Assembly (NCBI GenBank): GCA_015064285.1
Contig: SVSN01000023.1
Span: forward strand, 1 to 37,712
DNA length: 37,712 bases
Direction: 5' to 3'
From: Oscillospiraceae bacterium
GTDB lineage: Bacteria > Bacillota > Clostridia > Oscillospirales > CAG-272
Shown here one piece after another: positions 1 through 36,059 of this stretch (positions are counted from its first letter, which is position 1; every line of letters starts with the position of its first letter). The notes below the pieces were generated by a model. The model saw nothing but the letters and a program-made list of their open reading frames with translations. It was not told the DNA's origin and did not search any database. The position numbers and the translations under genes are program-made.

Positions 1-8
1 TTTCCGGT

Positions 9-1487: not shown

Positions 1488-1528
1488 GGTTTGTCCTCCG
1501 TTTGTGATAATTTACATCTTCTGTTACC

Positions 1529-1558
1529 AGTATACCACAGAAGGGAGGCAGAATGCAA
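1529..1558 (-). promoter_or_regulatory. Sigma-A-type promoter of the 9-1487 lipoprotein gene
   Basis: On the minus strand a TTGCAT -35 (1553-1558) is separated by 18 bases from TATACT (1529-1534), about 40 bases before the start codon. It sits just past the stop codon of the upstream regulator gene, so the lipoprotein gene can be transcribed on its own. Confidence 0.5.
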
Positions 1559-1566
1559 TAGGAAAT

Positions 1567-2815: not shown

Positions 2816-3301
2816 TCACAGCGTATGATAATACACCACAATATCCTCGTACACATCGCCGTCCATCCGGAATCCGCCGGGGATTACGCCCACCTGCACA
2901 AATCCCAGTTTTTCGTAGAGATGTCTGGCGGGGGTGTTTGTGGCCACCACTGCGTTGAACTGCAGCAGACGGAAACCGCATTCTCCGGCGGTCTGCAGAC
3001 AGTGGCGGACAAGGGCTTCTCCCACCCCTCTGCCTCTGGCCTCCGGTGCCACCGCATAGCTGGCGTTGGAGATGTGACCGCAGCGGCCGATGTTGTTGGG
3101 ATGCAGGATGTACATGCCAAGCACAGTGCCGTCCTCTTCCGTGACACCGCAGGATGTCTGTTCGCCAAAGAAGGCTTCGGCTTCGGTGAGGGTCAGCAGT
3201 TCTGTCTGGGGAAAGGCAATCCCGTCTTCCACGACCCGGTTCCAGATGGCGGTCATGGCGGGAATGTCGGCGTTGGTATAGGGACGGGTGATCAGTGACA
3301 T
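2816..3301 (-). CDS. GNAT-family N-acetyltransferase
   Basis: Acetyl-CoA-dependent N-acetyltransferase of 161 aa, similar in layout to the phosphinothricin/amino-acid acetyltransferase subgroup. The acetyl-CoA binding motif A is Y-A-V-A-P-E-A-R-G-R-G-V-G-E-A-L (about residues 82-97), followed by N-A-V-V-A-T-N-T-P-A-R-H-L-Y-E-K-L-G-F, typical of motif B. Start set at 3301 (AGAGGA upstream) rather than 3379, because the longer frame overlaps the promoter. It is monocistronic, with its own promoter and terminator. The substrate cannot be told from sequence. Confidence 0.85.
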   Translation of the reverse strand: MSLITRPYTNADIPAMTAIWNRVVEDGIAFPQTELLTLTEAEAFFGEQTSCGVTEEDGTVLGMYILHPNNIGRCGHISNASYAVAPEARGRGVGEALVRHCLQTAGECGFRLLQFNAVVATNTPARHLYEKLGFVQVGVIPGGFRMDGDVYEDIVVYYHTL

Positions 3302-3337
3302 ACGTTTTCCTCTGCATACATACAAAATGTTGGGGTC

Positions 3338-3366
3338 AGTATACCATACAGTACCCGATTTTGCAA
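3338..3366 (-). promoter_or_regulatory. Promoter of the GNAT gene
   Basis: Minus-strand TTGCAA (3361-3366), 17 bases, TATACT (3338-3343). The -35 lies inside a 13-bp tandem duplication. Confidence 0.6.
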
Positions 3367-3383
3367 GAGTATTTTGCAAGAGT
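3358..3383. repeat. 13-bp tandem duplication in a divergent promoter region
   Basis: ATTTTGCAAGAGT occurs twice back to back (3358-3370 and 3371-3383). Each unit contains TTGCAA, so the duplication doubles the potential -35 element of the GNAT promoter. Confidence 0.8.
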
Positions 3384-3408
3384 ATGGGGAGAAATATCGG
3401 TTCTGCGG

Positions 3409-3437
3409 TTGCATTTTGTCCGCAGACGTGTTATAAT
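3409..3437 (+). promoter_or_regulatory. Promoter of the E2-like acyltransferase gene
   Basis: TTGCAT (3409-3414), 17 bases, TATAAT (3432-3437), about 43 bases before the ATG. Confidence 0.65.
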
Positions 3438-3479
3438 GTAACAAATAGTACATAAATTCATGTTGAATGAGGTGCTCCC

Positions 3480-4439
3480 ATGGAAGAGACGAAAACGCCC
3501 CTAGCGGAAGAAACTGCCGTACAGACAGCCGCGGAGCCTGCCGCAGTGCCGGAACCGGATAAAAAGCCGGAAAAGCCGAAAAAAGAAAAGAAGCTGAAGG
3601 AACACCGCCGTGTAAAATCCCTGTCTCCCATGGCGTCCATGATTCCTTTTATCATGGTAGACCGTGTAGGTTCCCAGAATTTTATCACGGATACCATGGA
3701 CGTTGAAAAACTGGAAAAGTATATGAAGGAAAAACAGCAGCAGGGCATGACCAACATCAGTATGATGCATATCATGATTGCTGCCTATGTGCGTCTGGTA
3801 GCCACCCGTCCCGCGCTGAACCGTTTTATCCGGGGACAGCGCGTATGGACCAAGCGGCACGTGGATGTGTCCCTGACCATCAAGAAGGAAATGACGCTGG
3901 ATTCTCCCGATACAGTGGTGAAGATCAGCCTGCTGCCGGATGCCACCATTGAGGATGTGTACAACGCTCTGAACGAAAAGATCGTGGGCTACCGGGACAA
4001 TCCGGGTGGCAACTTTGACGATACGGCCCGTGTGCTGAGCTACATACCCGCACTGCTGCTGAAGGGGGTTGTGGCGCTGCTCCGGGGTATGGACTACTTC
4101 GGCCTGATCCCGAAATTCCTGACGGATCTGAGCCCCTTCCACTGTTCTTATTTCATCACCTCCATGGGCTCTCTCGGGATTCCGCCCATCTACCATCACC
4201 TGTACGACTTTGGTACCTGTCCTGTATTTTTTGCCTTCGGTGCCAAGCGCCGTGTGTACGAACCGGATGCAGAAGGCGTCATCAAGCGCAAGTCCTATGT
4301 TGACTATACTTTCGTGCTGGACGAACGGATCTGCGATGGATTCTATTATGCCTCCGCTATGCGCGTGCTGAAGGGGATTTTCCGCAATCCCTGGCAGCTG
4401 GACAACCCGCCGGCAGAGGTGATTCCCGATATCGACTGA
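3480..4439 (+). CDS. Stand-alone 2-oxoacid dehydrogenase E2-like acyltransferase, catalytic His missing
   Basis: 319 aa. Residues 1-45 are a Pro/Glu/Lys/Ala-rich tail. Residues about 50-305 resemble the chloramphenicol-acetyltransferase-like catalytic domain of dihydrolipoamide acyltransferases. There is no lipoyl domain and no E1/E3-binding domain, and no E1 or E3 gene is nearby. The Y-F-I-T-S-M-G-S-L-G region corresponds to the E2 S-S-L-G strand. The active-site motif, normally D-H-R-x-x-D-G, reads D-E-R-I-C-D-G: Asp and Gly are kept but His is Glu. It is therefore unlikely to be a normal acyltransferase and may be a divergent enzyme or a trimeric scaffold. GAGGTG precedes the ATG, and a clear terminator follows. 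Confidence 0.75.
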   Translation: MEETKTPLAEETAVQTAAEPAAVPEPDKKPEKPKKEKKLKEHRRVKSLSPMASMIPFIMVDRVGSQNFITDTMDVEKLEKYMKEKQQQGMTNISMMHIMIAAYVRLVATRPALNRFIRGQRVWTKRHVDVSLTIKKEMTLDSPDTVVKISLLPDATIEDVYNALNEKIVGYRDNPGGNFDDTARVLSYIPALLLKGVVALLRGMDYFGLIPKFLTDLSPFHCSYFITSMGSLGIPPIYHHLYDFGTCPVFFAFGAKRRVYEPDAEGVIKRKSYVDYTFVLDERICDGFYYASAMRVLKGIFRNPWQLDNPPAEVIPDID

Positions 4440-7543: not shown

Positions 7544-9022
7544 TTATTCTGCCATCAGTGCGTCGATGGTTTTCTGCATGGCGGATTCCGTGGCGGAGAT
7601 CTTGCTCTTCAGAGAAGAAGCCAGGTCTGTTTTGCCGGTAGCGGACAGGGAGCCGGGCAGATCGAGCAGGCCGCCCCAGCCGTACAGATTCCCCAGTTCA
7701 AAGGCGCGGGCTTCAAAGATCAGATCCAGCATGGCGGCGGAGTCTTCGTCACGGGCAGCCTTGGTCTTCAGAACCACATCATAGAAGGCAGGGGTCAGGG
7801 TGTACATGGATTCGGCGGACAGGGCTTCGATGATGATGCCGGTCCGTTCCGGGTCGGAAAGGCTCTTGGGCACAGAGATCATGTTGGCAGCCCACAGGCT
7901 CACCAGGTCATGATACTGTTCCTGTTCTTCGTCATATTTGGGCAGCGGCAGGATTCCGAAGTCGGTTTCCATTTCCCGGAACATGGTAACCCGGTTCAGA
8001 CCCACGCAGGTGAACAGCACACGGCCTTCCGTAAAGGCAACATCCATGCATTCGCCCCATACATCGGGATATTTGTTTAAGAAGTTGTTTACAAACATAC
8101 AGACATCAAAGTTCCCGTTGATGGCATTGGCTTTTTCAAAGGCGTTGAAGAACTTTTCCGACTGGGCGGTGACATAGGGCATATCGTTTTCGTCCTTGTC
8201 AAAGAACCGTTCGCCTGCCCCCAGAATAAATGCGGCAGTGTTGAAGCCTTCGCCCTGCATACCCCACTGGTCAAATTCATCATGGACGCCGTCACCGTTC
8301 AGGTCTGTGGAGGCAAGGGTCAGATAGCCCTCCAGCACGTCCAGTGTCCAGGTGCCATCCAGTACCATGCCGTACAGGTCACCCAGAGCCAGGTCTTCCG
8401 CCAGTTTTTTGTTGAACAGAAGAGCCCAGGTAGCCTTGTTGTCCATGATGTTCAGGTCGCCTGCAGTCAGATGCAGTCTGCCGCCGATGGACAGGGATGC
8501 ATTGGCACTCTGGTCGTACCAGGGTTTGGAAAGATCCATGTAGGGAATCTGCGTCAGGTCCATCAGCAGACCGGAAGTTGCCAGTCCGCCGGTTATGGTT
8601 CCGCCGATCAGCAGCAGGTCATACAGATCGTCTCCGGCCTGAATTGCCTGCTTGGCCAGAGCAGAGGGGTCATCGCTGGTACCGATCATTTCCGCAACCG
8701 TGAAGTTGTACTTTTCCCCCACGGAGGCATTCCGGTTGTATACCGCGTCATTGATGGGTTCACCGGTCAGCTCCTCCGCATAGGCGTCCTGGCTGAACCA
8801 GTGACTGCTGAAATTCCCCTTGGTCAGAATGGTGAATTCATGGCCGCCGAAATCTTTGTCCGGCAGATCGGGCTTCAGTCTGGTTTCTTCGGTTTCCACA
8901 ACTTCTGCAGCTGTGTCATTCGTGGGGGCAGCTGTGGTTTCTTCTGCGGCATTTCCGCAGCCGGGCAGGGCAGACAGCATAATCGCTGCCAGAAGGGCAC
9001 TCAGGATACGGCGCTTTTTCAT
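7544..9022 (-). CDS. Extracellular solute-binding lipoprotein (ABC-type, orphan), paralog 2
   Basis: 492 aa with lipobox (A-L-P-G-C, Cys about residue 22), a Thr/Glu/Ala linker, and the paralog signature L-P-D-K-D-F-G-G-H-E-F-T-I-L. Shared blocks with the 32438 paralog include G-I-L-P-x-P-K-x-D-E, T-P-A-F-Y-D-V-V-L-K-T-K and a D-L-N-G-D-G Ca-binding-like loop (aligned D-S-N-G-D-G there). Probably delivers a carbohydrate-type ligand to an importer encoded elsewhere. AGGAG precedes the ATG, and it has its own promoter. No transporter subunits are adjacent. Confidence 0.85.
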   Translation of the reverse strand: MKKRRILSALLAAIMLSALPGCGNAAEETTAAPTNDTAAEVVETEETRLKPDLPDKDFGGHEFTILTKGNFSSHWFSQDAYAEELTGEPINDAVYNRNASVGEKYNFTVAEMIGTSDDPSALAKQAIQAGDDLYDLLLIGGTITGGLATSGLLMDLTQIPYMDLSKPWYDQSANASLSIGGRLHLTAGDLNIMDNKATWALLFNKKLAEDLALGDLYGMVLDGTWTLDVLEGYLTLASTDLNGDGVHDEFDQWGMQGEGFNTAAFILGAGERFFDKDENDMPYVTAQSEKFFNAFEKANAINGNFDVCMFVNNFLNKYPDVWGECMDVAFTEGRVLFTCVGLNRVTMFREMETDFGILPLPKYDEEQEQYHDLVSLWAANMISVPKSLSDPERTGIIIEALSAESMYTLTPAFYDVVLKTKAARDEDSAAMLDLIFEARAFELGNLYGWGGLLDLPGSLSATGKTDLASSLKSKISATESAMQKTIDALMAE

Positions 9023-9968: not shown

Positions 9969-10036
9969 ATACAGCAAAACAGCCGCGAATCCCTTTGGAT
10001 GCCCCTGTGGGGACATACGGTATTCCGGCTGTTTTC
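9969..10036 (-). terminator. Large terminator-like hairpin closing the ligA-murJ operon
   Basis: Ten-base-pair outer stem AAAACAGCCG (9976-9985)/CGGCTGTTTT (10026-10035) enclosing a second hairpin CCCC-TGT-GGGG (10002-10012). T-rich sequence follows on the minus strand. Confidence 0.6.
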
Positions 10037-10047
10037 GGTTGTGGTTT

Positions 10048-10437
10048 TCAGACGGCGGCGGGATCTTCTGCAATCCCCGACAGGATCATGGTCCAGGTAT
10101 ATTCGATAAAGGCGAACATGGTCAGAACCGTGGTCAGTATGCCGATCAGGGAGGAAAGATTGTCCACAAGCTGATGGCTGGATCCGGCGGCTTTCAGCAC
10201 CAGAAACAGTACGGCGAAGCTGGTGAGAAAACAGGCAACTACAAGAATCCGCTGTTTCCCGGTCATCCGGCAGAAGCAGGTGGAGGTACCGTATTTGTTC
10301 CGGCTCCAACGGATAAAGGTGGCAATCTGTATGGGACAGGAGAAGAAAATAGCGTAGCCCGCAGAAGCGTACAGTCCCATGAGCGTATACACGATGCCGT
10401 ACAGGACGGAGTTGCAGCCCCCGATCAGGCCGGATGA
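10048..10437 (-). pseudogene. PnuC-like transporter remnant (truncated)
   Basis: The minus-strand frame is open from inside the end of the glycosyltransferase gene down to 10048. It reads G-L-I-G-G-C-N-S-V-L-Y-G-I-V-Y, then C-P-I-Q-I-A-T-F-I-R-W-S-R-N-K. This matches the central PnuC pattern (G-L-I-N-x-x-L-Y ... P-x-Q-I-x-x-x-x-W-x-x-N) and is followed by D-N-L-S-S-L and E-Y-T-W. PnuC proteins (NAD-precursor importers) usually have about 200 residues or more; here the first helices and the last helices are missing. No ATG start or ribosome site is evident (the first in-frame candidates are CTG and GTG). I read it as a decayed gene at the operon end, though a short membrane protein with an unusual start cannot be excluded. 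Confidence 0.45.
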
Positions 10438-10462
10438 CCTGCTCTTTGGCGTATTTGCCGGA

Positions 10463-11584
10463 TTACTTTTTGTCGGATACCGCTTTCCGGTACAGTGCTT
10501 CCATCTGTCGGGTCATGGCGGAGGCGGTGAACTTTTTTCCGTAGGATTCTTCTGCACCGATGCACAGCTTCCGGTACAGGTCAGCGTCGTCCGCAATCAT
10601 GGAGATTTTCTCAGCCAGCGCCGCCGGATTTCTCTGGGGAACCAGATACCCGTTCCAGTCGTCCGTGACCATGTAGGGATTGCCGCCGAAATCCGAGGCA
10701 ACCGCGGGAATACCCAGACTGTATCCTTCCGACAGCGCCAGACAGGAGGTCTCCGTGCCGATGGAACAGTTGATGCTCAGGTTCATGATATTGTAGTACG
10801 GCGCCACATCATAGACAAAGCCTGTGAAACGGACGATATCCATGATGCCCAGCGCTTCCGCTTCCGCTTTCAGAGCCGCTTCTTCGGAGCCGCCGCCGAT
10901 AATGAGATATTTCAGCTGTGGATGACTTTCCTTCAGCCGTGCAGCGGCCTGCAGCAGATAGGTGTGCCCCTTGTAGTCTTCCAGCCGTGCAGAGATGCCG
11001 CAGACAAAATCATCGGCTTCGATACCCAGCGACTGCCGGAGGGCGGCCTGCTCTTCTTCTGCGGTTTCCCGCATGGGTTCCACACCGTTGATGATGACGG
11101 TGATTTTTTTCGGGTTCACACCGGTGACGGTCAGATCGTCCATGGCGGCCTGTGCCACGGCTACAATATGGGTGGACAGGGTGTTGTTCACCAATCCGTT
11201 GATCTGCTTGCCGGGGAAGGTGGTCAGCTTCTTCGGCTGGGGAAAGGCACAGTGTCTGGTGTAGAACCGGCCGGTCACGCCGCAGAGCCACGCCGCCAGC
11301 TTGCCGGAAAAGGAGGAGTGACAGTGGACAATGTCCGGCTTCCATTCCCGGATGATGGCTTTCAGCTCGCCTACAGCCGCCATGTCAAAGCTTTTGTCCC
11401 GTCCGTTTTCGATTTCCCGGACCGCATAGCCTTCCGCTTCCACCATGGGAATCAGCTCCGCCCCTTTTGGCAGAACCACAAGCATCTCAAATGCGTTTTT
11501 ATCAAAATTATGAAGGTAGTTCACAAGAAGCCGTCCCGCTCCGCCGATGTTGGAGTCGGTGAGAATCTGCAGTACACGAATCAT
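10463..11584 (-). CDS. GT4-family glycosyltransferase
   Basis: 373 aa GT-B retaining glycosyltransferase. Features: N-terminal D-S-N-I-G-G-A-G-R glycine loop, H-C-H-S-S in the N-domain, and in the C-domain I-N-G-V, S-A-R-L-E-D-Y-K-G-H and the E-x7-E donor-site motif (E-T-S-C-L-A-L-S-E). It would transfer a sugar from a nucleotide donor onto a lipid or surface glycan on the cytoplasmic face. It lies 68 bases after murJ on the same strand, which suggests a role in envelope polymer assembly. GGAG lies six bases before the ATG. Confidence 0.88.
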   Translation of the reverse strand: MIRVLQILTDSNIGGAGRLLVNYLHNFDKNAFEMLVVLPKGAELIPMVEAEGYAVREIENGRDKSFDMAAVGELKAIIREWKPDIVHCHSSFSGKLAAWLCGVTGRFYTRHCAFPQPKKLTTFPGKQINGLVNNTLSTHIVAVAQAAMDDLTVTGVNPKKITVIINGVEPMRETAEEEQAALRQSLGIEADDFVCGISARLEDYKGHTYLLQAAARLKESHPQLKYLIIGGGSEEAALKAEAEALGIMDIVRFTGFVYDVAPYYNIMNLSINCSIGTETSCLALSEGYSLGIPAVASDFGGNPYMVTDDWNGYLVPQRNPAALAEKISMIADDADLYRKLCIGAEESYGKKFTASAMTRQMEALYRKAVSDKK

Positions 11585-22866: not shown

Positions 22867-22908
22867 AGGTTATATCCTCCTGCATGAGAGTATTCATGTT
22901 ACGGTATC

Positions 22909-22937
22909 AGTGTATCATGTTTGTCCTTTTTTGTCAA
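22909..22937 (-). promoter_or_regulatory. Promoter of the sulfotransferase operon
   Basis: Minus-strand TTGACA (22932-22937), 17 bases, TACACT (22909-22914). Confidence 0.6.
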
Positions 22938-23045
22938 TGCCGAATTTGCCGGGGACAGGGAACGGATGACGGGCATATACTGCCTTTGACAGAATCCGTC
23001 CGGGGTTCTGCCATATACGACTTTCAAAACACAGGAGGACGGAAA

Positions 23046-23906
23046 ATGCCGACATTTCAGAACAGAGCCACCCTGTCCGTGGGCGGCAATATCATTAATT
23101 CCAATGTGGTGCAGGGCGAGATCACAGAGGTGCTCCGGATCACCAAGACTGCTGTGAACGGATCCTATGTACCGGGGGATACCGTAACCTATGCGGTCAG
23201 CGTGGTCAATACAGGCACCTCGCCCTATACAGGTCTGACCCTGACCGACGATCTGGGGGAATACCCTTTCGGCGGAGGAACCCTGGTACCGCTGACCTAT
23301 GCGGAGGGAACTGTACAGGTATATGTGAACGGTGTTCTGCAGCCGCAGCCTGCGGTTACGGATCCTTTTTCCATTGCCGGACTGAGTGTTCCCGCCGGCG
23401 GCAATCTGCTGGTGCTGTACAGCGCCGAAGTCAACCGGTTTGCCCCGCCTGAAGCCGACGGGACCGTGACCAATACCGTAACTCTCACCGGCGGCGGACT
23501 GAGCACCCCTCTGACCGCGGAAGCCGTGATTACTGCGGAAAATACCCCCAGTCTGACCATCAATAAGGCCATCTGCCCGGCTGTAATCACCGACAACGGT
23601 ACGCTCACCTATACGTTTGTGATCCAGAACACCGGCAATACACCTGTGGCAGCAACGGACGGCGCTGTGATCACCGATACCTTTGAGACGACGGCAACCG
23701 GTGTGGAAGTGACCTTCAACGGTACCTCCTGGACGGAGGGCACAGACTACACCTACGACAACACCACCGGTCTGTTCACCACCACAGGCCCCATCACCGT
23801 TCCCGCAGCCACCTACACCCAGGATCCCGAAACCGGCGAATGGATCCTGCAGCCCGGGGTGGCGGAACTGGTGGTCACCCTGAGCGGCGTGCAGATCCGC
23901 GGATGA
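23046..23906 (+). CDS. DUF11 repeat protein without signal peptide
   Basis: 286 aa made mainly of two DUF11-type beta-sandwich repeats. Repeat 1 (about residues 28-135) shows T-K-T-A-V, Y-V-P-G-D-T-V-T-Y-A-V-S-V-V-N-T-G and L-T-D-D-L-G. Repeat 2 (about 170-280) shows I-N-K-A-I-C-P, N-G-T-L-T-Y-T-F-V-I-Q-N-T-G-N and I-T-D-T-F. DUF11 units are normally in secreted adhesins or spore surface proteins, yet the start (AGGAGG seven bases upstream of 23046) gives no signal peptide, no anchor and no sorting motif. The frame extends to 22884, but the upstream part is not hydrophobic enough to change this clearly. A spore-coat-like role is one possibility (inference). Confidence 0.75.
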   Translation: MPTFQNRATLSVGGNIINSNVVQGEITEVLRITKTAVNGSYVPGDTVTYAVSVVNTGTSPYTGLTLTDDLGEYPFGGGTLVPLTYAEGTVQVYVNGVLQPQPAVTDPFSIAGLSVPAGGNLLVLYSAEVNRFAPPEADGTVTNTVTLTGGGLSTPLTAEAVITAENTPSLTINKAICPAVITDNGTLTYTFVIQNTGNTPVAATDGAVITDTFETTATGVEVTFNGTSWTEGTDYTYDNTTGLFTTTGPITVPAATYTQDPETGEWILQPGVAELVVTLSGVQIRG

Positions 23907-27932: not shown

Positions 27933-27961
27933 TTGACGAAATTTCGCCGAAATGCTATAAT
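27933..27961 (+). promoter_or_regulatory. Promoter of CBM9-like gene 1
   Basis: TTGACG (27933-27938), 17 bases, TATAAT (27956-27961). Confidence 0.7.
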
Positions 27962-28013: not shown

Positions 28014-28769
28014 ATGAAGAAACTCGCTTCTCTTCTGCTGGCAGGTCTTCTGGCCGTTGCCATGATCGCTCCCGCATCCGCTGCAGGCGCGAACGAAATC
28101 CTGAAGGGTACTCCTACTCTGGATGGTCAGCTGGATGACATCTACGCTCAGTCCGCTGTATACACCATCGAAGCTGACTCCGTAAATTACGCATGGGGCG
28201 GCGCTGAAATCCAGGATTTCTCCAATGCTGTTTCCTACTTCCTGTGGGACGACAACTATCTGTACATCTGCACCACCAACGTTGACGACACTCCCGTTGC
28301 TCTGACCGGCGAAAAGACCTGGATGAACGACGCTGCTGAAATGTGGTTCATCGACGAAGGTCTGCGCCACAAGATCCACGCTGCTGCTGACGGTAACTTC
28401 TTCCTGGGTACCGACGGCGACGGCCAGACCGCTTACGATTTCGCTGGTGCCAAGTCCGTTGCCAACTACACTGACGACGGCTGGTGCATCGAAGTTGCTC
28501 TGCCCATGAACGACCTGGGCGCAGGCAAGGAATTCTCCTTCACTCTGCAGGTTAACAACTGTCTGGACGATGGTGCCGCTGCCGGTTCCGCTTCCGGTTC
28601 TCAGGCTGGTGACTACGCTATGAAGTGCGTTGCAGAAGAAGTTGTTCTGCCCGTAGTTGAAGAAGTTGTTGAAGAAGCTACTGCTCCTCAGACCTTCGAC
28701 GCTGGTGTGATCGCTGCTGTTGCCGCTATCGTATCCGCTGCCGGTTACGCTATCTCCAAGAAGAGATAA
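28014..28769 (+). CDS. Secreted CBM9-like surface protein 1 with C-terminal APQTFD-type anchor
   Basis: 251 aa. Signal peptide with A-S-A-A cleavage site near residue 24, then a domain with the CBM9/DOMON-like pattern: G-T-P-T-L-D-G-Q-L-D-D-I-Y, S-Y-F-L-W-D-D-N-Y-L-Y-I-C, and late strand D-G-W-C-I-E-V-A-L-P-M-N-D-L. An acidic Val/Glu linker leads to the motif A-P-Q-T-F-D, a hydrophobic Ala/Val/Ile helix and the basic end K-K-R. Likely exported and held at the surface, perhaps binding glycans. AAAGGAG upstream of the ATG; own promoter and terminator. Codon choice is strongly biased (GCT, GAA, AAC, GAC), unlike neighbouring genes. Confidence 0.75.
   Translation: MKKLASLLLAGLLAVAMIAPASAAGANEILKGTPTLDGQLDDIYAQSAVYTIEADSVNYAWGGAEIQDFSNAVSYFLWDDNYLYICTTNVDDTPVALTGEKTWMNDAAEMWFIDEGLRHKIHAAADGNFFLGTDGDGQTAYDFAGAKSVANYTDDGWCIEVALPMNDLGAGKEFSFTLQVNNCLDDGAAAGSASGSQAGDYAMKCVAEEVVLPVVEEVVEEATAPQTFDAGVIAAVAAIVSAAGYAISKKR
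28686..28769 (+). repeat. Conserved 84-bp C-terminal anchor cassette, copy 1
   Basis: Encodes P-Q-T-F-D, the hydrophobic helix, K-K-R and TAA. The four copies (28686, 29788, 31012, 32191) vary at only three positions, all third codon bases, although the rest of the genes diverge far more. Confidence 0.9.
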
Positions 28770-28789
28770 GTTTCGTTAACGGAAATTTC

Positions 28790-28823
28790 AAAGGCTCTCT
28801 GTATGCACAGGGAGCCTTTTTCC
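28790..28823 (+). terminator. Terminator of CBM9-like gene 1
   Basis: Thirteen-base-pair stem (28790-28802 with 28807-28819, one G-U), loop ATGC, then five T. Confidence 0.8.
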
Positions 28824-28887
28824 ATGCTTCGAAAAATGCTGAACAAGAAAATTCAATTATTAAATCATATAAAATTTGCAGAATAGC

Positions 28888-28916
28888 TTGACAAAAACGG
28901 GAAATGGTGTTAAAAT
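28888..28916 (+). promoter_or_regulatory. Promoter of CBM9-like gene 2
   Basis: TTGACA (28888-28893), 17 bases, TAAAAT (28911-28916). Confidence 0.7.
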
Positions 28917-28926
28917 ATGAACGCAT

Positions 28927-28960
28927 CGTAAAGCATAAGAGGTATATCTGTGACTTTACG
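28927..28960 (+). other. 5' leader hairpin of CBM9-like gene 2
   Basis: CGTAAAG (28927-28933) pairs with CTTTACG (28954-28960) across a 20-base loop close to the predicted transcript start; it could stabilise the mRNA. Confidence 0.4.
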
Positions 28961-28992
28961 GTAGGAAAATTTTATAAGAAGAGGTATAGAAA

Positions 28993-29871
28993 ATGAAAAA
29001 GGTTCTCTCTCTGATTCTGGCTTCTATGCTCGTAGCTACTCTGGCAGTGTCCGCAGCAGCAGTTGAAACTCTGTCTGACGACGTTGCTCGTAACTTTGGC
29101 TTCGGCGTAAAGAAGGCCAACACCGCATGGGCTCCTGACGGCGTTAAGTCCGAAGGCGAATACTATGACATCGACTACCTGCCTGAATGGTGCGTAGGCG
29201 TTTGCCACGACGCTTCCCTGTCTGACGAAGCTCAGAACCTGGATGTAGACGTTGCTGTATCCTGGGACGACACCTACCTGTACACCTGGCTGTCCTACAC
29301 CGAAGGCACCGGTCATCACTTCGATGCTACCGAACACTCCGGCTTCTGGGACGGTGAAATCGTTCAGCTGGGCGCTGCTGAAATCGACGTTGCTGTTGAA
29401 GACGCTGCTGACCGTCTGGAAACCGGTTACGGTATGTACACCGCTGACGGCTCCAAGGCTACCATGAACTGGGCTGACGGTAAGGGTACCGGCCACTGCG
29501 CTAACAACTCTGGCGTTGACGATTTCGAATGCTTCGTTGATGGCAACACCATCACCTACGAAATCAGAACTCCTTTCAACGCATTCACTTCCAAGTCCGT
29601 TGAAGAAGGCCTGCAGTTCAAGCTGTGCTACGTTATCTGCTATGATGGCGGCGCTGGCGAATACCTGATGTGGTCCCTGGGCGACGGTGTTACCGGTGGT
29701 GCAAAGGACGCTTCCCTGCACGCTAACGTAACTCTGGAAGCTGCTCCCGTTGTAGAAGTTGTTGAAGACGTTGTTGTTGAAGACGCTCCTCAGACCTTCG
29801 ACGCTGGTGTGATCGCTGCTGTTGCTGCTATCGTATCCGCTGCTGGTTACGCTATCTCCAAGAAGAGATAA
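28993..29871 (+). CDS. Secreted CBM9-like surface protein 2 with C-terminal APQTFD-type anchor
   Basis: 292 aa, the longest of the array. Signal peptide ends near A-V-S-A-A-A. The body has W-A-P-D-G-V-K-S-E-G-E-Y-Y-D-I, V-S-W-D-D-T-Y-L-Y-T-W-L-S-Y, W-D-G-E-I-V-Q-L-G, Y-E-I-R-T-P-F-N-A-F and a final strand A-N-V-T-L-E. This order matches proteins 3 and 4, so it is the same fold with moderate identity. It carries extra Cys residues (C-V-G-V-C-H, C-A-N-N, E-C-F, L-C-Y-V-I-C). Val/Glu linker, then D-A-P-Q-T-F-D, helix and K-K-R. Own promoter, leader hairpin and terminator; same strong codon bias. Confidence 0.75.
   Translation: MKKVLSLILASMLVATLAVSAAAVETLSDDVARNFGFGVKKANTAWAPDGVKSEGEYYDIDYLPEWCVGVCHDASLSDEAQNLDVDVAVSWDDTYLYTWLSYTEGTGHHFDATEHSGFWDGEIVQLGAAEIDVAVEDAADRLETGYGMYTADGSKATMNWADGKGTGHCANNSGVDDFECFVDGNTITYEIRTPFNAFTSKSVEEGLQFKLCYVICYDGGAGEYLMWSLGDGVTGGAKDASLHANVTLEAAPVVEVVEDVVVEDAPQTFDAGVIAAVAAIVSAAGYAISKKR
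29788..29871 (+). repeat. Conserved 84-bp C-terminal anchor cassette, copy 2
   Basis: Identical to copy 4 (32191-32274) and differing from copies 1 and 3 at two positions each. The first bases after the stop (GTT) are also shared by all four. Confidence 0.9.
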
Positions 29872-29892
29872 GTTATAAAACATAATCGTTTT

Positions 29893-29925
29893 AGATCCCT
29901 TTCCATCCGGAAGGGGATCTTTTTT
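29893..29925 (+). terminator. Terminator of CBM9-like gene 2
   Basis: Twelve-base-pair stem (29893-29904 with 29909-29920, one G-U), loop ATCC, then a T run. Confidence 0.8.
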
Positions 29926-30118
29926 GCTCATTTATTTATTAGCGATTAAATAATTTTTTGTAAGCTATTAAATAATTTCCGGCAGGTTACTGCAAACTAT
30001 TAATTAAATATATTGCTATATAGAATTATATAAAACAGTTTAATAAAAATAAATAAAGAAATGAATTAAGAAACAGGTATTAATTATTGTATGAATGAAC
30101 AAAAAGCCTGTGGATACC

Positions 30119-30147
30119 TTGACAGTACAAATAGTGCATGATAGAAT
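30119..30147 (+). promoter_or_regulatory. Promoter of CBM9-like gene 3
   Basis: TTGACA (30119-30124), 17 bases, TAGAAT (30142-30147). Confidence 0.65.
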
Positions 30148-30228
30148 AGATTTGTATCGAGGCGTGGGTTTCCCGCAGTGTAGGCTGGGGAAGATTGCCC
30201 GATAAATACAATTAAAGAGGGTATCAAA

Positions 30229-31095
30229 ATGAAGAAGACTCTTTCTCTGATCCTGGCCGGCGTTCTGACCGCTGCCATGGCTCTGTCCGCTTCCGCTGCA
30301 TGGGAAGACTGTGCGAACACCGACGTTAAGTTCGGCGTTAAGGGTATCGCTGCTGATACTACCTGGGCTGCTGACGGCGAATGGGCTGAAGGCGAATACG
30401 CTGAAATCGCTGTAGATGGCAAGTGGATGTCCGCTGCTACCTCCGACGAAGCCAACATTCCTGCTGCAAAGGCTCTGGACTACACTCTGGGTATGTCCTG
30501 GGATGCTGACTACCTGTACGCTTTCATCCAGTTCTACGATGAAAACGGTCACGACTGCCCCTACGGCTCCGACCCCGGCAACATCTGGCAGGCTGGTGCT
30601 ATCCAGGTTTCCGCTGCTGAAGTTGACTCCGTTGCATCTGACAGACTGGAATACGGTATTGCTCTGGCTACCGACACCGGCGCTATGGTCTCCACCGTTT
30701 GGGCTGACTATCTGGGCTCCGGCTACGCTGTTGAAGGCGACTACATCGTTATCAACGACGGTGACACCATGACCTACGAATTCAGAGTTCCCTTCTCCGC
30801 ATTCTCCACCAAGGCTGCTGCTGAAGGCGCTCAGTACGGTATCAACCTGGTTCTGTCCTGGGGTAACGGCACTGACTACATCCACTCTCAGCTGGCTGCT
30901 GGCTGCACCGGTGACCCCGGCAAGGCTGCTGACCGTTTTGCTGACATCACTCTGGAAGAAGCTATCGTAGTTGAAACCGAACCTGAAGTTGTAGAAGACA
31001 CTGCTGCTGCTCCTCAGACCTTCGACGCTGGTGTGATCGCTGCTGTTGCTGCTATCGTATCCGCTGCAGGCTACGCTATCTCCAAGAAGAGATAA
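30229..31095 (+). CDS. Secreted CBM9-like surface protein 3 with C-terminal APQTFD-type anchor
   Basis: 288 aa. Signal peptide to A-L-S-A-S-A-A, then D-V-K-F-G-V-K-G-I-A-A-D, W-A-E-G-E-Y-A-E-I, M-S-W-D-A-D-Y-L-Y-A-F-I-Q-F-Y-D, W-Q-A-G-A-I-Q-V-S-A-A-E, Y-E-F-R-V-P-F-S-A-F, V-L-S-W-G-N-G-T-D-Y and A-D-I-T-L-E-E. This strand order fits a CBM9-like sandwich (L-W-D-x-x-Y-L-Y signature as M-S-W-D-A-D-Y-L-Y). A short Glu/Thr linker precedes A-A-P-Q-T-F-D, helix, K-K-R. It has the same length as protein 4 and is very similar to it throughout. A weak GAGGGT ribosome site precedes the ATG. Confidence 0.75.
   Translation: MKKTLSLILAGVLTAAMALSASAAWEDCANTDVKFGVKGIAADTTWAADGEWAEGEYAEIAVDGKWMSAATSDEANIPAAKALDYTLGMSWDADYLYAFIQFYDENGHDCPYGSDPGNIWQAGAIQVSAAEVDSVASDRLEYGIALATDTGAMVSTVWADYLGSGYAVEGDYIVINDGDTMTYEFRVPFSAFSTKAAAEGAQYGINLVLSWGNGTDYIHSQLAAGCTGDPGKAADRFADITLEEAIVVETEPEVVEDTAAAPQTFDAGVIAAVAAIVSAAGYAISKKR
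31012..31095 (+). repeat. Conserved 84-bp C-terminal anchor cassette, copy 3
   Basis: As for copy 1; differs from copies 2 and 4 at two third-codon positions. Near-identity with copy 4 extends about 120 bp further upstream. Confidence 0.9.
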
Positions 31096-31160
31096 GTTGT
31101 CTCCGAAAAGAACTGCCTGAAAAACGTATGACCTACATAAGTACGATTTCATAACAGGTA

Positions 31161-31194
31161 AAAAGAACTCCGGTTTTCCCGGGGTTCTTTTTTT
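31161..31194 (+). terminator. Terminator of CBM9-like gene 3
   Basis: Stem AAGAACTCCGG/CCGGGGTTCTT (one G-U), followed by seven T. Confidence 0.8.
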
Positions 31195-31292
31195 GGTTGA
31201 CTAATCCTGTAGGTATTTTATGAATCTGTTGTAAAAAATGCTCCTGAAAATAAACAGGGCTAAAAAAATCAATTTATAAAGGCGAAATTATA

Positions 31293-31321
31293 TTGACAAT
31301 TTATGAATTGTGTGATACAAT
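31293..31321 (+). promoter_or_regulatory. Promoter of CBM9-like gene 4
   Basis: TTGACA (31293-31298), 17 bases, TACAAT (31316-31321). Confidence 0.7.
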
Positions 31322-31407
31322 ACAACCGAGCCTTGAGGGTGTTTTTTCGGTATTATCGAAAAACATTTTCAAAGGACAAAAAATATTTTATAGAAGAGGG
31401 AAGAAAA

Positions 31408-32274
31408 ATGAAGAAGACTCTTTCTCTGATCATGGCAGGTCTGCTGACCGCTGCTATGGCACTCTCCGCTTCCGCAGCTTTCGTTGACTGCGCTAACCCC
31501 GACGTTAAGTTCGGTGTTAAGGGTATCGCTGCTGACGTTGCATGGGCTGCTGACGGTGAATGGACCGAAGGCGAATACGCCGAAATCGCTGTAGATGGCA
31601 AGTGGATGTCCGCTGCTGTTTCCGACGAAGCTAACCTGGACGCTGCTCAGAAGCTGGATTACAAGCTGGGTATGTCCTGGGACGCTAACTACCTGTACAC
31701 CTACATCGAATTCTACGATGCAAACGGCCACGACAACACCTACGGTGCTGACCCGGGTAACATGTGGCAGGCTGGTGCTATTCAGGTATCCGCTGCTGAA
31801 GTTGACTCCGTAGCCGGCGACCGTCTGGAATATGGCGTAGGCATTACCTCCGACACCAACGAACTGATCAACACTGTATGGGCTGACTACCTGGGCTCCG
31901 GCTACGGCGTAGCAGGCGACTACATCGTTGTTAACGATGGCGACACCATGATCTATGAAATCAGAACTCCCTTCAACGCATTCTCTACTGTAGCTCCCAA
32001 GGAAGGCGCTCAGTACGGCGTTAACCTGGTTCTGTCCTGGGGTAACGGTTCTGACTATATCCACACTCAGCTGGCTGCTGGCTGCACCGGTGACCCCGGC
32101 AAGGCTGCTGACCGTTTCGCTGACATCACTCTGGAAGAAGCTATCGTAATCGAAACCGAACCTGAAGTTGTAGAAGACACTGCTGCTGCTCCTCAGACCT
32201 TCGACGCTGGTGTGATCGCTGCTGTTGCTGCTATCGTATCCGCTGCTGGTTACGCTATCTCCAAGAAGAGATAA
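31408..32274 (+). CDS. Secreted CBM9-like surface protein 4 with C-terminal APQTFD-type anchor
   Basis: 288 aa and closely similar to protein 3 from signal peptide to end, indicating a recent tandem duplication. Differences are concentrated in surface-like stretches (for example A-S-D-E-A-N-I-P-A-A-K versus L-D-A-A-Q-K, and S-T-V-A-P-K-E-G versus S-T-K-A-A-A-E-G). It shares Y-E-I-R-T-P-F-N-A-F with protein 2 rather than the F-R-V-P-F-S-A-F of protein 3, which hints at mosaic exchange among the copies. Start at 31408 (GAGGGAAG upstream) gives a proper signal peptide; the frame upstream to 31303 is leader. Confidence 0.75.
   Translation: MKKTLSLIMAGLLTAAMALSASAAFVDCANPDVKFGVKGIAADVAWAADGEWTEGEYAEIAVDGKWMSAAVSDEANLDAAQKLDYKLGMSWDANYLYTYIEFYDANGHDNTYGADPGNMWQAGAIQVSAAEVDSVAGDRLEYGVGITSDTNELINTVWADYLGSGYGVAGDYIVVNDGDTMIYEIRTPFNAFSTVAPKEGAQYGVNLVLSWGNGSDYIHTQLAAGCTGDPGKAADRFADITLEEAIVIETEPEVVEDTAAAPQTFDAGVIAAVAAIVSAAGYAISKKR
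32191..32274 (+). repeat. Conserved 84-bp C-terminal anchor cassette, copy 4
   Basis: Identical to copy 2 over all 84 bases although genes 2 and 4 differ widely upstream, the strongest sign of homogenisation among the tails. Confidence 0.9.
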
Positions 32275-32318
32275 GTTTGTTTCAAACATATTCTGACATT
32301 TGAGAAATGACATAGGAA

Positions 32319-32346
32319 AAACCGCTCTGAAAAGGGCGGTTTTTTT
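32319..32346 (+). terminator. Terminator of CBM9-like gene 4
   Basis: Nine-base-pair stem AAACCGCTC/GGGCGGTTT (one wobble) and a seven-T tail. Confidence 0.75.
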
Positions 32347-32367
32347 GTGGGATTTTTTATCTGGTTC

Positions 32368-32396
32368 TTGTGCGGCTGTGAAAACTGTGTTATAAT
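32368..32396 (+). promoter_or_regulatory. Promoter of the 32438 lipoprotein gene
   Basis: TTGTGC (32368-32373), 17 bases, TATAAT (32391-32396). Confidence 0.6.
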
Positions 32397-32437
32397 ACAG
32401 GTGTATTCCCATATTTTAAATTAAGGAGATAAAACAT

Positions 32438-33928
32438 ATGAAAACCAAGAAACTGCTTGCTCTGCTGCTTGCGGCTGTGCTGGCTTTCTCCGGCCTTGTT
32501 GGCTGCGGAAGTGCGGAAGCGGAAACCGAAGCAGCCGGCAACAGTGGAGACACTGTTGTGGAAACGACTCCCCAGGATGTGGAAACCACCCGTGACCAGA
32601 TTTCCGATAACCTGCCTGATAAGGACTTCGGAGGCCGGAATTTCCATCTGCTGACCAGACAGAACTACTTCCATAAGTTCATGCCGGAAGACATGACCGG
32701 CGAAGCGGTGAACGATGCCCTGTATGCCCGGAACACCGAAATCATGGAACGGTACAATATCACTATGAGTTATACCGCGCCTGCCTGTGAATGGGGTTCT
32801 TCCTCCAAGACCTGGAACCAGGATCTGGAAACCTCTGTAATGGCCGGTGACGGTGCCTACGACCTGGTCGCCGGATACGCTTCCACTGTACCGGAAGTGG
32901 TAACCAAGAACATTCTGCTGAACTGGCACGATGTGCCCTATATTGATCTCTCCCGTCCCTGGTGGAGCGAAAGAGTTTCCGAAGCCCTGACGGTAAACGG
33001 TAAGCTGTTTCTGCTGACCGGTGACTATTCCCTTTCTCTGTGGGACGATATGTTCGGTTTCCTGTTCAACAAGCAGGTGGCACTGGACTATGGTATTGAA
33101 GACCTGTACGAGCTGACCAGAAACGGCGGCTGGACCATGGACAAGCTGGCAGAATTCTGCAGTGCGGTAGCCAACGATTCCAATGGTGACGGCACCTGGG
33201 ATGCCAATGATACCTACGGTCTGGTATCCAACTGGTCCACCTCCATCGACACTTTCCAGATCAGCTGTGACATGGATCTGGTATCCCACAAGGATGACGG
33301 CGGTCTGGAGATCACTATGATGTCCGAAAAAGCTGTGGACATTCTGTCCCGCGTAACCGCCCTGTATAACGATGCACATGCAGCCTATGCGGTTGACGAC
33401 GCCGGGATTCTGACTACCTATGACAATATGTTCTCCGGCGGACAGGCGTTGTTCTATGCCATCTTCTTTGCCAATATCACTGCTCTGCGTGACATGGAAA
33501 CCGACTTCGGGATCCTGCCTTATCCCAAACTGGACGAAGCACAGGCACAGTATTCCAGCACGTCCCGTGACAACTTTGACCTGTTTGTTCTGCCTATCGA
33601 CGTTAAGGATCAGGAATTCTCCGGGATTATTACCGAAGCGCTGTGCGCTGAATCCTACCGCAGCGTAGTGCCTACCTACTACGATGTGGTTCTGAAAACC
33701 AAGACCTCCCGTGACGAAGAATCCGCTGAAATGATTGACATCATCCGTGACTCCCTTACCTTCGACCTGGGTTACCTGTGCTCCACGTCCCTGAACGGTC
33801 TGGGCCATATCTTCGTAAACCTGGTTCGCAACAACTCTACCGACCTGGCTTCCAGGTATGCCGGCGCCGAAAAGGCTGCACAGAGTGCGCTGGAAGAAAT
33901 GCTGGCGGCTTACGGTTACGGCGGCTGA
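32438..33928 (+). CDS. Extracellular solute-binding lipoprotein (ABC-type, orphan), paralog 3
   Basis: 496 aa with lipobox (G-L-V-G-C, Cys about residue 23), acidic linker, then L-P-D-K-D-F-G-G-R-N-F-H-L-L. It shares I-D-L-S-R-P-W-W, D-S-N-G-D-G-T-W-D, F-G-I-L-P-Y-P-K-L-D-E-A-Q and Y-Y-D-V-V-L-K-T-K-T-S-R-D-E-E-S with the paralogs at 9 and 7544. AAGGAG lies before the ATG. It sits directly behind the CBM9-like array with its own promoter; the proximity suggests, but does not prove, a shared glycan-related role. No permease genes follow. Confidence 0.85.
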   Translation: MKTKKLLALLLAAVLAFSGLVGCGSAEAETEAAGNSGDTVVETTPQDVETTRDQISDNLPDKDFGGRNFHLLTRQNYFHKFMPEDMTGEAVNDALYARNTEIMERYNITMSYTAPACEWGSSSKTWNQDLETSVMAGDGAYDLVAGYASTVPEVVTKNILLNWHDVPYIDLSRPWWSERVSEALTVNGKLFLLTGDYSLSLWDDMFGFLFNKQVALDYGIEDLYELTRNGGWTMDKLAEFCSAVANDSNGDGTWDANDTYGLVSNWSTSIDTFQISCDMDLVSHKDDGGLEITMMSEKAVDILSRVTALYNDAHAAYAVDDAGILTTYDNMFSGGQALFYAIFFANITALRDMETDFGILPYPKLDEAQAQYSSTSRDNFDLFVLPIDVKDQEFSGIITEALCAESYRSVVPTYYDVVLKTKTSRDEESAEMIDIIRDSLTFDLGYLCSTSLNGLGHIFVNLVRNNSTDLASRYAGAEKAAQSALEEMLAAYGYGG

Positions 33929-34947: not shown

Positions 34948-35346
34948 ATGGAAGAGTTTATCTCCAAAAAGGAAGTGCTGGCAAAGTACGGAATTTCCTA
35001 TGGCGCACTGTACCGGTGGAAGCGGATGGGACTGATTCCGGAGGACTGGTTTATCCGGCAGTCCACCCAGACGGGGCAGGAAACCGTTTTCCCAAAGGCG
35101 CTGATGTGTGCGCGGATGGAAGAAATTCTGGCGCAGAAGAATGACACATCGCTGGAAGAACTGGCGGAACGATACAGAAGCCGGACGGAAAACCTGCAGC
35201 TGGTGATCCGTCATGCAAGCGGGACAGGGGTCAGCCGGCTGGAACTGTCGGAGATCGCCTGGATCGGTCTGTCCGACGGTACGGATCTGACACAGATGAT
35301 CAGAGAAGCGGCGGAAAAGGGAACACAGAGAAAGGATATGGTATGA
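34948..35346 (+). CDS. YhbD-type DUF4004 protein with MerR-like HTH
   Basis: 132 aa. The N-terminus (F-I-S-K-K-E-V-L-A-K-Y-G-I-S-Y-G-A-L-Y-R-W-K-R-M-G-L) is a MerR-like helix-turn-helix; the following part is helical and charged, as in B. subtilis YhbD-type proteins. It likely binds the two palindromes at its own promoter. AAGGAG lies six bases before the chosen ATG. The stop overlaps the bactofilin start (ATGA), so both are made together. This regulator-bactofilin pairing resembles the yhbD-E-F cluster of Bacillus. Confidence 0.72.
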   Translation: MEEFISKKEVLAKYGISYGALYRWKRMGLIPEDWFIRQSTQTGQETVFPKALMCARMEEILAQKNDTSLEELAERYRSRTENLQLVIRHASGTGVSRLELSEIAWIGLSDGTDLTQMIREAAEKGTQRKDMV

Positions 35347-36059
35347 ACAATAACATCAATATCAACGGCTCCGGCAGCGTGGCCGGCGGCACTTATGATA
35401 CCGTTACCATCAACGGAAGCGGGCGGGTGAACGGCGATCTTGTCTGTCACAGCATGACCATCAACGGCAGCGGGGCTGTACACGGGAACCTGAAGGCAGC
35501 CGGCAGCTTTACCATCAACGGCTCCGGCAGAGTGGATGGGAGCATCACCGAAAGCGGCAGTGTAGCCATCAACGGCTCCGGGAAAGTAGGCGGATCTGTC
35601 CATTGCCATACCTTCCGTTCTTCCGGTTCCGCTTCCGTGGACGGGGACTGCGAAGGGGAAGACGTGGAACTGAGCGGCGGCGGTCACATCGGCGGGCTGC
35701 TCAACGGGGAAAAGGTGCGGATTCATCTGTATAACAACAACCATCCGAAAATCGGCTCCATCGGCGGTTCGGATATTCAGGTAAAACACAGACCGGGCGG
35801 AAACGGAAATAATCCCGGTTGGCATATCAAAATTTTGGGAATCGAAATCGGCAGCAGCGGCGGCAGCGGAGAGCCGGGGTATCTGGAAACCGACACCATT
35901 GAGGGCGATGTTATCGATCTGGCATATACCAGGGCCAACCGGGTCAGCGGTCGTGTGGTGAAAATCGGTGCAGGATGTATGATCGGCAGAGTGGAATACA
36001 CCGAATCCGCCGAGATCGACAGAGAAAACAGCGAAATCGGGGAAACAGTGCAGCTGTAA
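35343..36059 (+). CDS. Bactofilin-like polymer-forming protein
   Basis: 238 aa. Residues 1-130 are right-handed beta-helix repeats: the I-N-G-S-G unit occurs five times at near-regular spacing (T-I-N-G-S-G-R-V-N-G-D-L and similar), typical of bactofilins (YhbE/YhbF type). A Gly/Asn/Ser-rich middle and a second strand-rich part (V-S-G-R-V-V-K-I-G-A-G-C-M-I-G-R-V-E-Y) follow. Bactofilins form filaments that organise envelope or flagellar functions; the role here is unknown. No signal peptide. Four-base overlap with the upstream regulator gene. Confidence 0.85.
   Translation: MNNNININGSGSVAGGTYDTVTINGSGRVNGDLVCHSMTINGSGAVHGNLKAAGSFTINGSGRVDGSITESGSVAINGSGKVGGSVHCHTFRSSGSASVDGDCEGEDVELSGGGHIGGLLNGEKVRIHLYNNNHPKIGSIGGSDIQVKHRPGGNGNNPGWHIKILGIEIGSSGGSGEPGYLETDTIEGDVIDLAYTRANRVSGRVVKIGAGCMIGRVEYTESAEIDRENSEIGETVQL

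Follow-up and report, generated by a model that had tools for sequence, protein, structure and literature searches.

A sorting-signal-like tail with nearly identical DNA closes four diverged secreted-protein genes in an Oscillospiraceae bacterium

Results

Four genes for diverged proteins end in nearly identical DNA

The window analysed here is the whole of contig C44, 37,712 nucleotides long, from the genome of an Oscillospiraceae bacterium (the source genome, G000; assembly of 3.2 Mb in 134 contigs, 73% complete). Towards its right end are four consecutive genes, numbered 1 to 4 in the direction of transcription (Table 1). Each encodes a protein with an N-terminal signal peptide, as read by eye rather than by a signal-peptide program. 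In alignments, amino-acid identity between the bodies of 1, 2 and 3/4 is 29-42% per pair, and this bears out the wide divergence described in an earlier, sequence-only reading of the DNA. Conversely, the last 28 residues are identical across all four proteins. The DNA encoding this tail differs only in the third positions of three codons (tail codons 14, 20 and 21), and genes 2 and 4 are identical here; the alignment thus confirms what had been claimed for the last 84 bp.

We compared the tails with expectations from codon usage. Each pair of tails agrees at 25-28 of 28 codons, against 18.3 expected from the codon usage of the bodies. Summed over the six pairs, 157 of 168 codons agree; the null distribution had a mean of 109.9 (standard deviation 8.3) and a maximum of 150 in 100,000 simulations. 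A neighbour-aware null, diluted by less biased genes and with its last Arg codon set by hand, reached the observed agreement in 0 of 200,000 simulations. Nulls drawn from the codons found at each position in sets of 94, 49 or 11 other tails gave expectations of 17.0, 18.8 and 20.2, and each was likewise reached in 0 of 200,000. Hence, none of five nulls (100,000 to 200,000 simulations) yields the observed value, and codon usage does not explain the likeness of the tail DNA. At identical residues of the bodies, agreement is close to that expected from usage (39 versus 39.4 codons for genes 1 and 2; 75 versus 69.5 for genes 2 and 4). The exception is genes 3 and 4, with 159 agreeing codons against 138.3 expected.

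A 3' tract has been homogenised between genes 3 and 4

As a reference we used the gene at the same place in a relative, G014, which has 96% body identity to gene 4 and the same downstream genes. Before nucleotide 660, gene 4 goes with the G014 orthologue at 117 sites and with gene 3 at 11. After nucleotide 660 the counts are 2 and 9 (Fisher test, 1.9e-7). The best change-point falls after nucleotide 657 of the gene, that is at codon 219, and 0 of 10,000 permutations gave one as good. In successive 96-base segments, genes 3 and 4 are alike at 93-94 positions near the 3' end, compared with 68-86 earlier. This flip in similarity indicates that a 3' tract of ~207 bp was homogenised between the two genes, most simply by gene conversion. 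Given the 9-to-2 site count, the event would be later than the split from G014, unless the end of the G014 gene was itself converted. The G014 contig starts 246 bases before the orthologue and the counterpart of gene 3 is therefore outside view.

The sequence-only reading had argued that protein-level selection could not hold the synonymous sites. For this, the nulls disfavour codon usage alone as the further cause, and the homogenised tract is seen in genes 3 and 4. Gene conversion may, by extension, also have acted on genes 1 and 2.

The tail is found throughout the genus

The search for further copies that had been proposed found the tail at 16 places in the source genome: four on C44, two on C32 and one on each of ten other contigs. 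The tail is thus no property of the array, as had been supposed, and an array-specific cassette is ruled out. A wider search, at an expectation value (E) <= 0.01, gave matches in 25 of 59 genomes. Same-genus genomes account for 192 matches, in 20 of 25; 17 are in the source genome, the 17th not being among the matches listed. Outside the genus there were 7 weak matches in 5 of 34 genomes, including APQTSD, APQTAD and NPGTAD forms. Individual genomes among those searched encode up to 22 tail-bearing proteins. In five tail-less genomes a loose search gave 5 weak matches in 3 genomes (best E 0.196), and the three that were translated have no such tail in the frame read. Where publicly named, the relatives carrying the tail are Clostridia metagenome-assembled genomes, with goat caecum, goat colon and water-buffalo rectum among the sources (18 loci).

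We fetched 109 of the 192 same-genus tails, a sample that favours genomes with many listed matches. The tail consists of an acidic linker, the motif A-[P/A]-x-T-F-D, a hydrophobic helix of small residues and a basic K/R end. Thr, at the expected cleavage site, and Asp, at the second position after it (P2'), occur in 109 of 109 tails. Position one is Ala in 106. Pro lies two residues before the Thr in 98, including all four window proteins. The AAQTFD tails (11 of 109) are co-resident with APQTFD tails (L185, L186, L187, L130, L188, L174, L177, L178, L192, L115 and L129). Across the genus the first Ala of the tail is GCT in 89 of 95, accounted for by the Ala-Pro context, and the last Arg is AGA in 56 of 59, versus 21% in bodies. 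By eye, the hydrophobic stretch, the basic end and an N-terminal signal peptide are present in the own-genome proteins that have a complete start.

From these properties the tail appears to be a C-terminal surface-sorting signal, closest to those of class B sortases. Recognised as a genus-wide signal of this kind, it makes the array itself less strange. We found no mention of a PQTFD motif in the literature searched; searches for a sortase with NPXTG in Ruminococcus, and for work linking cell wall sorting signals and sortases to gene conversion, also returned nothing. The signal is thus, as judged from its residues, a variant unmentioned in that literature of a known sorting-signal layout.

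A class B sortase co-occurs with the tail in relatives

A single sortase was found in the source genome. Both its NCBIfam score (183.8 bits, cut-off 153.75) and its PDB matches place it in class B. Beside it are genes for a 1362-residue protein, whose TQXA domain exceeds the cut-off, and an 865-residue protein, whose TQXA match stays below it; the latter protein ends in PMTND and a helix. This sortase island stands apart from the array (L142, contig C71 of the source genome, 3051-11217), and a second PMTND-type tail occurs in a fragment near the end of the same contig (C71:27530).

A further class B sortase, distinct from this one, occurs in relatives (TIGR03064, 164.6 bits, cut-off 153.75); at L206 it is a protein of 364 aa. 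In 5 of 8 loci (L206, L208, L209, L211 and L212) it adjoins some of a set of genes that we take to be tilS-, hpt-, ftsH-, RlmA- and glycosyltransferase-like; such a neighbourhood was not recognised at L207, L210 and L213. Matches to this sortase at E <= 2.6e-83 occur in 19 genomes, all 19 tail-bearing. In the five tail-less genomes the E values are 9.1e-76, 1.3e-69, 1.4e-16 and 1.7e-15, with no match in the fifth. The association has a Fisher value of 1.1e-4, with a threshold chosen after the fact and the relatedness of the genomes uncorrected. The source genome is the only tail-bearing genome of the genus without an orthologue, its best match (2.8e-30) being the sortase beside the TQXA proteins. 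The RlmA-like neighbour was also not found there (best 34% over about 100 residues, E 3.6e-4). Since both are missing, the locus may lie in the unassembled part of the genome.

Arrays and tails of relatives

A syntenic array is present in relative G013. It comprises the secG-like gene, a tail gene on the opposite strand, orthologues of genes 1, 2 and 3/4 and an extra gene, o2; it continues with the same downstream genes and then one more tail gene. At this locus (L143, G013:C137, 696-11144) the extra tail genes are at 696-1634 (minus strand), 2866-3849 (o2) and 9975-11144. Hence, members of the array come and go. KKH is the ending of the tails of o2, o3, o4 and the gene on the opposite strand; o1 has KKR, as do all window tails. 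Codon agreement in the tail is 0.89-1.00 for window pairs and 0.81-0.96 between window tails and their G013 or G014 orthologues. In the bodies it is 0.67-0.75 for paralogues (0.80 for genes 3 and 4) and 0.74-0.93 for orthologues.

Draft contigs of relatives often start inside a tail or a short way before one, which gives the impression that the repeat interrupted the assembly (L111-L130). For relatives' contigs picked for starting at tails, 15 within-genome pairs were compared. Four of them have 93-99% identity as far as the stop codon; in the 60 bases beyond it only 10-22 are alike in all 15. One pair, L112/L113, is 98% alike over the last 256 bp and has no likeness after the stop.

We then compared tails within and between genomes. 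The permutation tests, positional conservation, near-identical-tail comparison and nulls from other tails all used a P-x-T-x-D filter, which excludes the 11 AAQTFD tails. General species-by-species concerted evolution in G000, G013 and G014 is unsupported: 175 of 2,000 permutations reach the observed synonymous identity within genomes, and pooled values were 0.665 within and 0.656 between genomes. In an eight-genome version of the test 0 of 500 permutations reached the observed value, but this result is confounded by tail subtypes. Near-identical tails (>= 0.90) on dissimilar bodies make up 8 of 336 pairs within genomes versus 16 of 2,307 between them (Fisher 0.007). At 0.93 the numbers are 3 versus 5 (Fisher 0.07) and at 0.95 they are 2 versus 5 (0.22). 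This comparison used 82 of 98 tails, those with short bodies being left out. For all 109 tails, agreement was 0.679 within and 0.573 between genomes (expected, 0.501 and 0.468).

Several tail proteins carry domains of glycan-binding families

Gene 1 scores 39.5 bits against Pfam CBM9_1 (cut-off 23.4) and matches the CBM9 structure of Thermotoga maritima Xyn10A (1i82) with E 3.3e-8; by sequence, its product is a CBM9 protein. For genes 2-4 there was no Pfam family, and no match among PDB sequences, at E <= 1. Their profile matches a CBM9 set (E 4.9e-5, probability 67.7). The two best PDB fold matches of a gene 4 model are both CBM9 (E 7.3e-4 and 8.6e-4; template modelling score 0.34-0.44), at a mean predicted local distance difference test (pLDDT) of 40.9. 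Genes 2-4 thus probably encode remote CBM9 folds. The CBM9/DOMON-like character first ascribed to all four bodies stands for gene 1 and, as a probable remote CBM9 likeness, for genes 2-4; DOMON was not hit.

In a Pfam scan of 14 tail proteins of the source genome (those on C99 and C29 were left out), CBM9 or CBM6 exceeds its cut-off in 5, and in another 3 CBM9 falls slightly short of it. Among ten tail proteins of relatives, picked for length, seven have CBM9, LamG/ConA-like or F5/8 domains over cut-off; PA, RodZ_C and DUF7827 are among a few other domains that pass. In the LamG protein of L200 the lectin-like receptor-binding family PF07953 passes, though no single stretch does. Taken together, 12 of 24 scanned proteins have CBM9, CBM6, LamG/ConA-like or F5/8 domains over cut-off, and this suggests that some or many tail proteins are glycan-binding. 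No glycoside hydrolase domain was listed for the 24, nor any S-layer domain in the Pfam scans. A surface coat or glycan-capture role, as first suggested, remains a reasonable conjecture.

Each gene has its own promoter-like site and terminator hairpin

Sites of the σ70 type, matching at 11 of 12 positions, with a 17-nt spacer and TG before the second hexamer, lie upstream of 4 of 4 genes. The region has 15 matches to the pattern in total, versus 5.3 expected. A terminator pattern scan detected the gene 2 site only (2 overlapping matches versus 3.9 expected). Folding located hairpins before T runs at all four genes, with free energies of -15.2 to -19.9 kcal/mol; for genes 1-4, respectively, 0, 0, 3 and 0 of 200 shuffles folded equally well. 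These signals agree with the description of four consecutive signal-peptide genes, each with its own promoter and terminator. The start of gene 4 was placed at the MKK codon after the ribosome site, and an upstream ATG at 31303 was not taken.

EF-Tu served as the expression yardstick, ribosomal L14 being absent from the assembly. The effective number of codons is 27.5-28.4 for genes 1-4, 27.7 for EF-Tu and 30.6-45.9 for 17 other window genes. Measured as codon adaptation to EF-Tu, genes 1-4 score 0.67-0.75 and EF-Tu itself 0.78, compared with 0.37-0.71 for the 12 other tail genes and 0.20-0.46 for the 17 other window genes. The codon bias that had set the four genes apart thus equals that of EF-Tu, and their products are probably very abundant surface proteins.

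Table 1. Coordinates of the four genes and associated features in the window.
Feature	Position	Strand	Basis or remark
Gene 1, secreted CBM9 protein, 251 aa	28014..28769	+	Pfam CBM9_1; structure-sequence match 1i82
Gene 2, probable secreted remote CBM9-like protein, 292 aa	28993..29871	+	Profile comparison only; no Pfam match
Gene 3, paralogue of gene 4, 288 aa	30229..31095	+	82% body identity with gene 4
Gene 4, probable secreted remote CBM9-like protein, 288 aa	31408..32274	+	Low-confidence model; best PDB matches CBM9
Sorting-signal-like tail and stop, gene 1	28683..28769	+	28/28 residues common to array
Sorting-signal-like tail and stop, gene 2	29785..29871	+	28/28 residues common to array
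Sorting-signal-like tail and stop, gene 3	31009..31095	+	28/28 residues common to array
Sorting-signal-like tail and stop, gene 4	32188..32274	+	DNA identical to gene 2 tail
Homogenised tract, gene 3 (last ~207 bp)	30887..31095	+	Change-point after nt 657
Homogenised tract, gene 4 (last ~207 bp)	32066..32274	+	Change-point after nt 657
Promoter-like site, gene 1	27933..27961	+	TTGACG-17-TATAAT
Promoter-like site, gene 2	28888..28916	+	TTGACA-17-TAAAAT
Promoter-like site, gene 3	30119..30147	+	TTGACA-17-TAGAAT
Promoter-like site, gene 4	31293..31321	+	TTGACA-17-TACAAT
Terminator hairpin, gene 1	28788..28825	+	-19.9 kcal/mol, z -5.9
Terminator hairpin, gene 2	29885..29925	+	-19.8 kcal/mol, z -4.6; also in pattern scan
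Terminator hairpin, gene 3	31160..31196	+	-18.7 kcal/mol, z -3.3
Terminator hairpin, gene 4	32318..32350	+	-15.2 kcal/mol, z -4.1

Discussion

We think it probable, though well short of assured, that the products of the four genes belong to a set of proteins, found throughout the genus, that are anchored at the surface and often bind glycans, and that their class-B-sortase-type tail doubles as a recombination patch. The N-terminal signal peptide would export each protein and the C-terminal tail would retain it in the membrane. The genus's class B housekeeping sortase would then cut after the Thr and join the protein to the cell wall. As a result, glycan-binding bodies without catalytic domains would stand on the cell surface. 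The tail is a module reused behind many other bodies of the genome and, because all copies carry it, would be a place at which they recombine; gene conversion would homogenise the 3' ends of the array while the bodies diverge. Cleavage, wall attachment, sugar binding and high expression are all predicted.

The closest known systems are the class B sortase signals, (S/P)PXTG of Clostridioides difficile SrtB and NPXTG/NPQTN of other SrtB enzymes. According to two reports, these share with the tail a C-terminal Thr motif, Asp two places on, a hydrophobic stretch and a basic end (PMC4155245, PMC11987632). C. difficile also has a single, housekeeping-like class B sortase serving several substrates (PMC4155245). 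A studied class B enzyme requires Asp at P2' (PMC11987632), and the Asp of T|F-D fits this requirement, which supports the class B reading. The tail differs in having Phe after the Thr, Ala before the Pro, Ala in place of Pro in 11 of 109 cases and a strongly conserved helix. Thus, it agrees with the published enzymes at the Thr and the P2' Asp, and not at the Phe or the Ala-for-Pro. NCBIfam NF033846 (Rumino_NPXTG, NPXTG-anchored protein) has weak similarity over the helix and basic end, at model positions 8-30, but the tail stays below its cut-off and the motif part is unmatched. PEP-CTERM/exosortase and GlyGly-CTERM/rhombosortase resemble the tail in that a single short homology domain stands at the C-terminus of many unrelated proteins in a genome (PMC1569441 and PMC3237569); their motifs and bacteria differ. 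CBM9 modules of T. maritima Xyn10A and Caldicellulosiruptor are alike by the gene 1 sequence match and, tentatively, by the fold match of the low-confidence gene 4 model; here, however, the proteins would be single-module and anchored, with no catalytic domain and a sugar clamp that is partly seen.

Several observations count against the explanation that we favour. With respect to sorting, the place that known sortase signals give to Gly, Asn or Ala is taken by Phe in 108 of 109 tails (by Leu in one), and Ala replaces Pro in 11. NF033846 gives 10.0-11.5 bits for three window proteins and nothing for gene 2, and its best score in the source genome is 15.4 bits, all below the cut-off of 23.5; matches at E <= 10 also appear in 12 of 14 control genomes, without reaching that cut-off in any. 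The sortase of the source genome adjoins TQXA-type proteins, one of which has its own PMTND signal. At a threshold of 1e-60 the co-occurrence of tail and relatives' sortase weakens to 19 of 21 versus 1 of 4 (Fisher 0.016), among genomes that are related. With respect to homogenisation, synonymous identity in G000, G013 and G014 is not higher within than between genomes by the permutation test, and a G013 tail at a different locus matches genes 2 and 4 at 83 of 84 bases; strictly within-genome homogenisation is therefore not general. A converted end of the G014 gene would give the same 9 sites, a point that bears on timing. Between genomes, codon conservation exceeds that predicted from usage by >0.2 at 7 of 28 tail positions (1, 4, 18, 22, 25, 26 and 28), the other 21 being within 0.2 of expectation. 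Context explains one of the seven, Ala before Pro being GCT in 80 of 89 body cases. Some extra constraint is therefore present, insufficient for the tail likeness. With respect to sugar binding, the clamp of TmCBM9-2 is Trp71 and Trp175 (PMC8280721); by hand count a gene 1 Trp aligns with the first only and the second is outside the alignment. The structure model of gene 4, finally, is poor.

The nearly identical 3' ends might alternatively reflect cassette spread, in which bodies were joined to an existing tail, tails are younger than bodies and no conversion is ongoing. The tail does sit behind unrelated bodies, and near-identical tails occur between species at different loci. Conversely, genes 3 and 4 are old paralogues over their whole length and yet only their 3' end is nearly identical. 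As a general account we regard cassette spread as doubtful, although it may apply to genes 1 and 2. A bolder form of the favoured account is also tentative. Here the tail would be a new sorting-signal class in this genus of gut Clostridia, TFD-CTERM. Its reader, either a sortase with a new specificity or some unknown enzyme, would recognise Thr-Phe-Asp together with a specific helix. The tail would often be carried by non-catalytic glycan-binding proteins and act as a recombination patch that homogenises and reshuffles surface proteins within, and perhaps between, species.

Two other readings concern how the tail is used. It could be a plain, uncleaved C-terminal membrane anchor that needs no sortase; a helix followed by KKR would suffice for anchoring, and sortase signals do not typically have Phe behind the Thr, or Ala in the Pro position as in the 11 tails. 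However, the invariant Thr and Asp and the near-invariant Phe all lie outside the helix, which suggests sequence-specific recognition, and the tails co-occur with a class B sortase in relatives. We consider a plain anchor unlikely. The unusual motif and conserved helix, with the lack of the relatives' class B sortase in the source genome, would also suit another, unknown enzyme, such as an exosortase-like protein or an intramembrane protease. This strikes us as a distinctly poor prospect: every other tail-bearing genome of the genus has the class B orthologue, and exosortase PF09721 gave no match at E <= 1 in the 73%-complete source genome, other enzyme families not having been searched. Strong codon selection acting on highly expressed genes is very improbable as the sole reason for the likeness of the tail DNA, for despite EF-Tu-like usage and the seven conserved positions, none of the five nulls was reached, bodies under the same bias agree only at the usage level and the similarity has an edge at codon 219.

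If a sorting signal, the tail would allow the surface proteins of a little-studied gut lineage to be picked out from sequence alone. It would widen sortase-type signals to include Phe after Thr and a dispensable Pro. It would also show that a sorting signal can serve as a common gene-conversion patch for surface proteins that have diverged elsewhere. Should the four proteins be as abundant as their codon usage implies, they may be a main contact of the cells with plant or host glycans.

Other features of the window

Upstream of the array, on the minus strand, are genes that we take from their sequences to be secG- and RNase R-like. Downstream are genes presumably encoding an extracellular solute-binding protein, an SGNH hydrolase-like protein and a polymer-forming, bactofilin-like protein. 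The latter (35343-36059) has NINGSG repeats and its counterpart also adjoins the array in G013. The window has three extracellular solute-binding-protein-like genes (9-1487, 7544-9022 and 32438-33928), with no adjoining permease recognised by eye. Long open frames of 319-370 aa opposite genes 2-4 (minus strand, 28972-32412) are probably a by-product of codon bias. An open reading frame at 22884-23906 encodes surface-protein-type repeats that are, by eye, DUF11-like.

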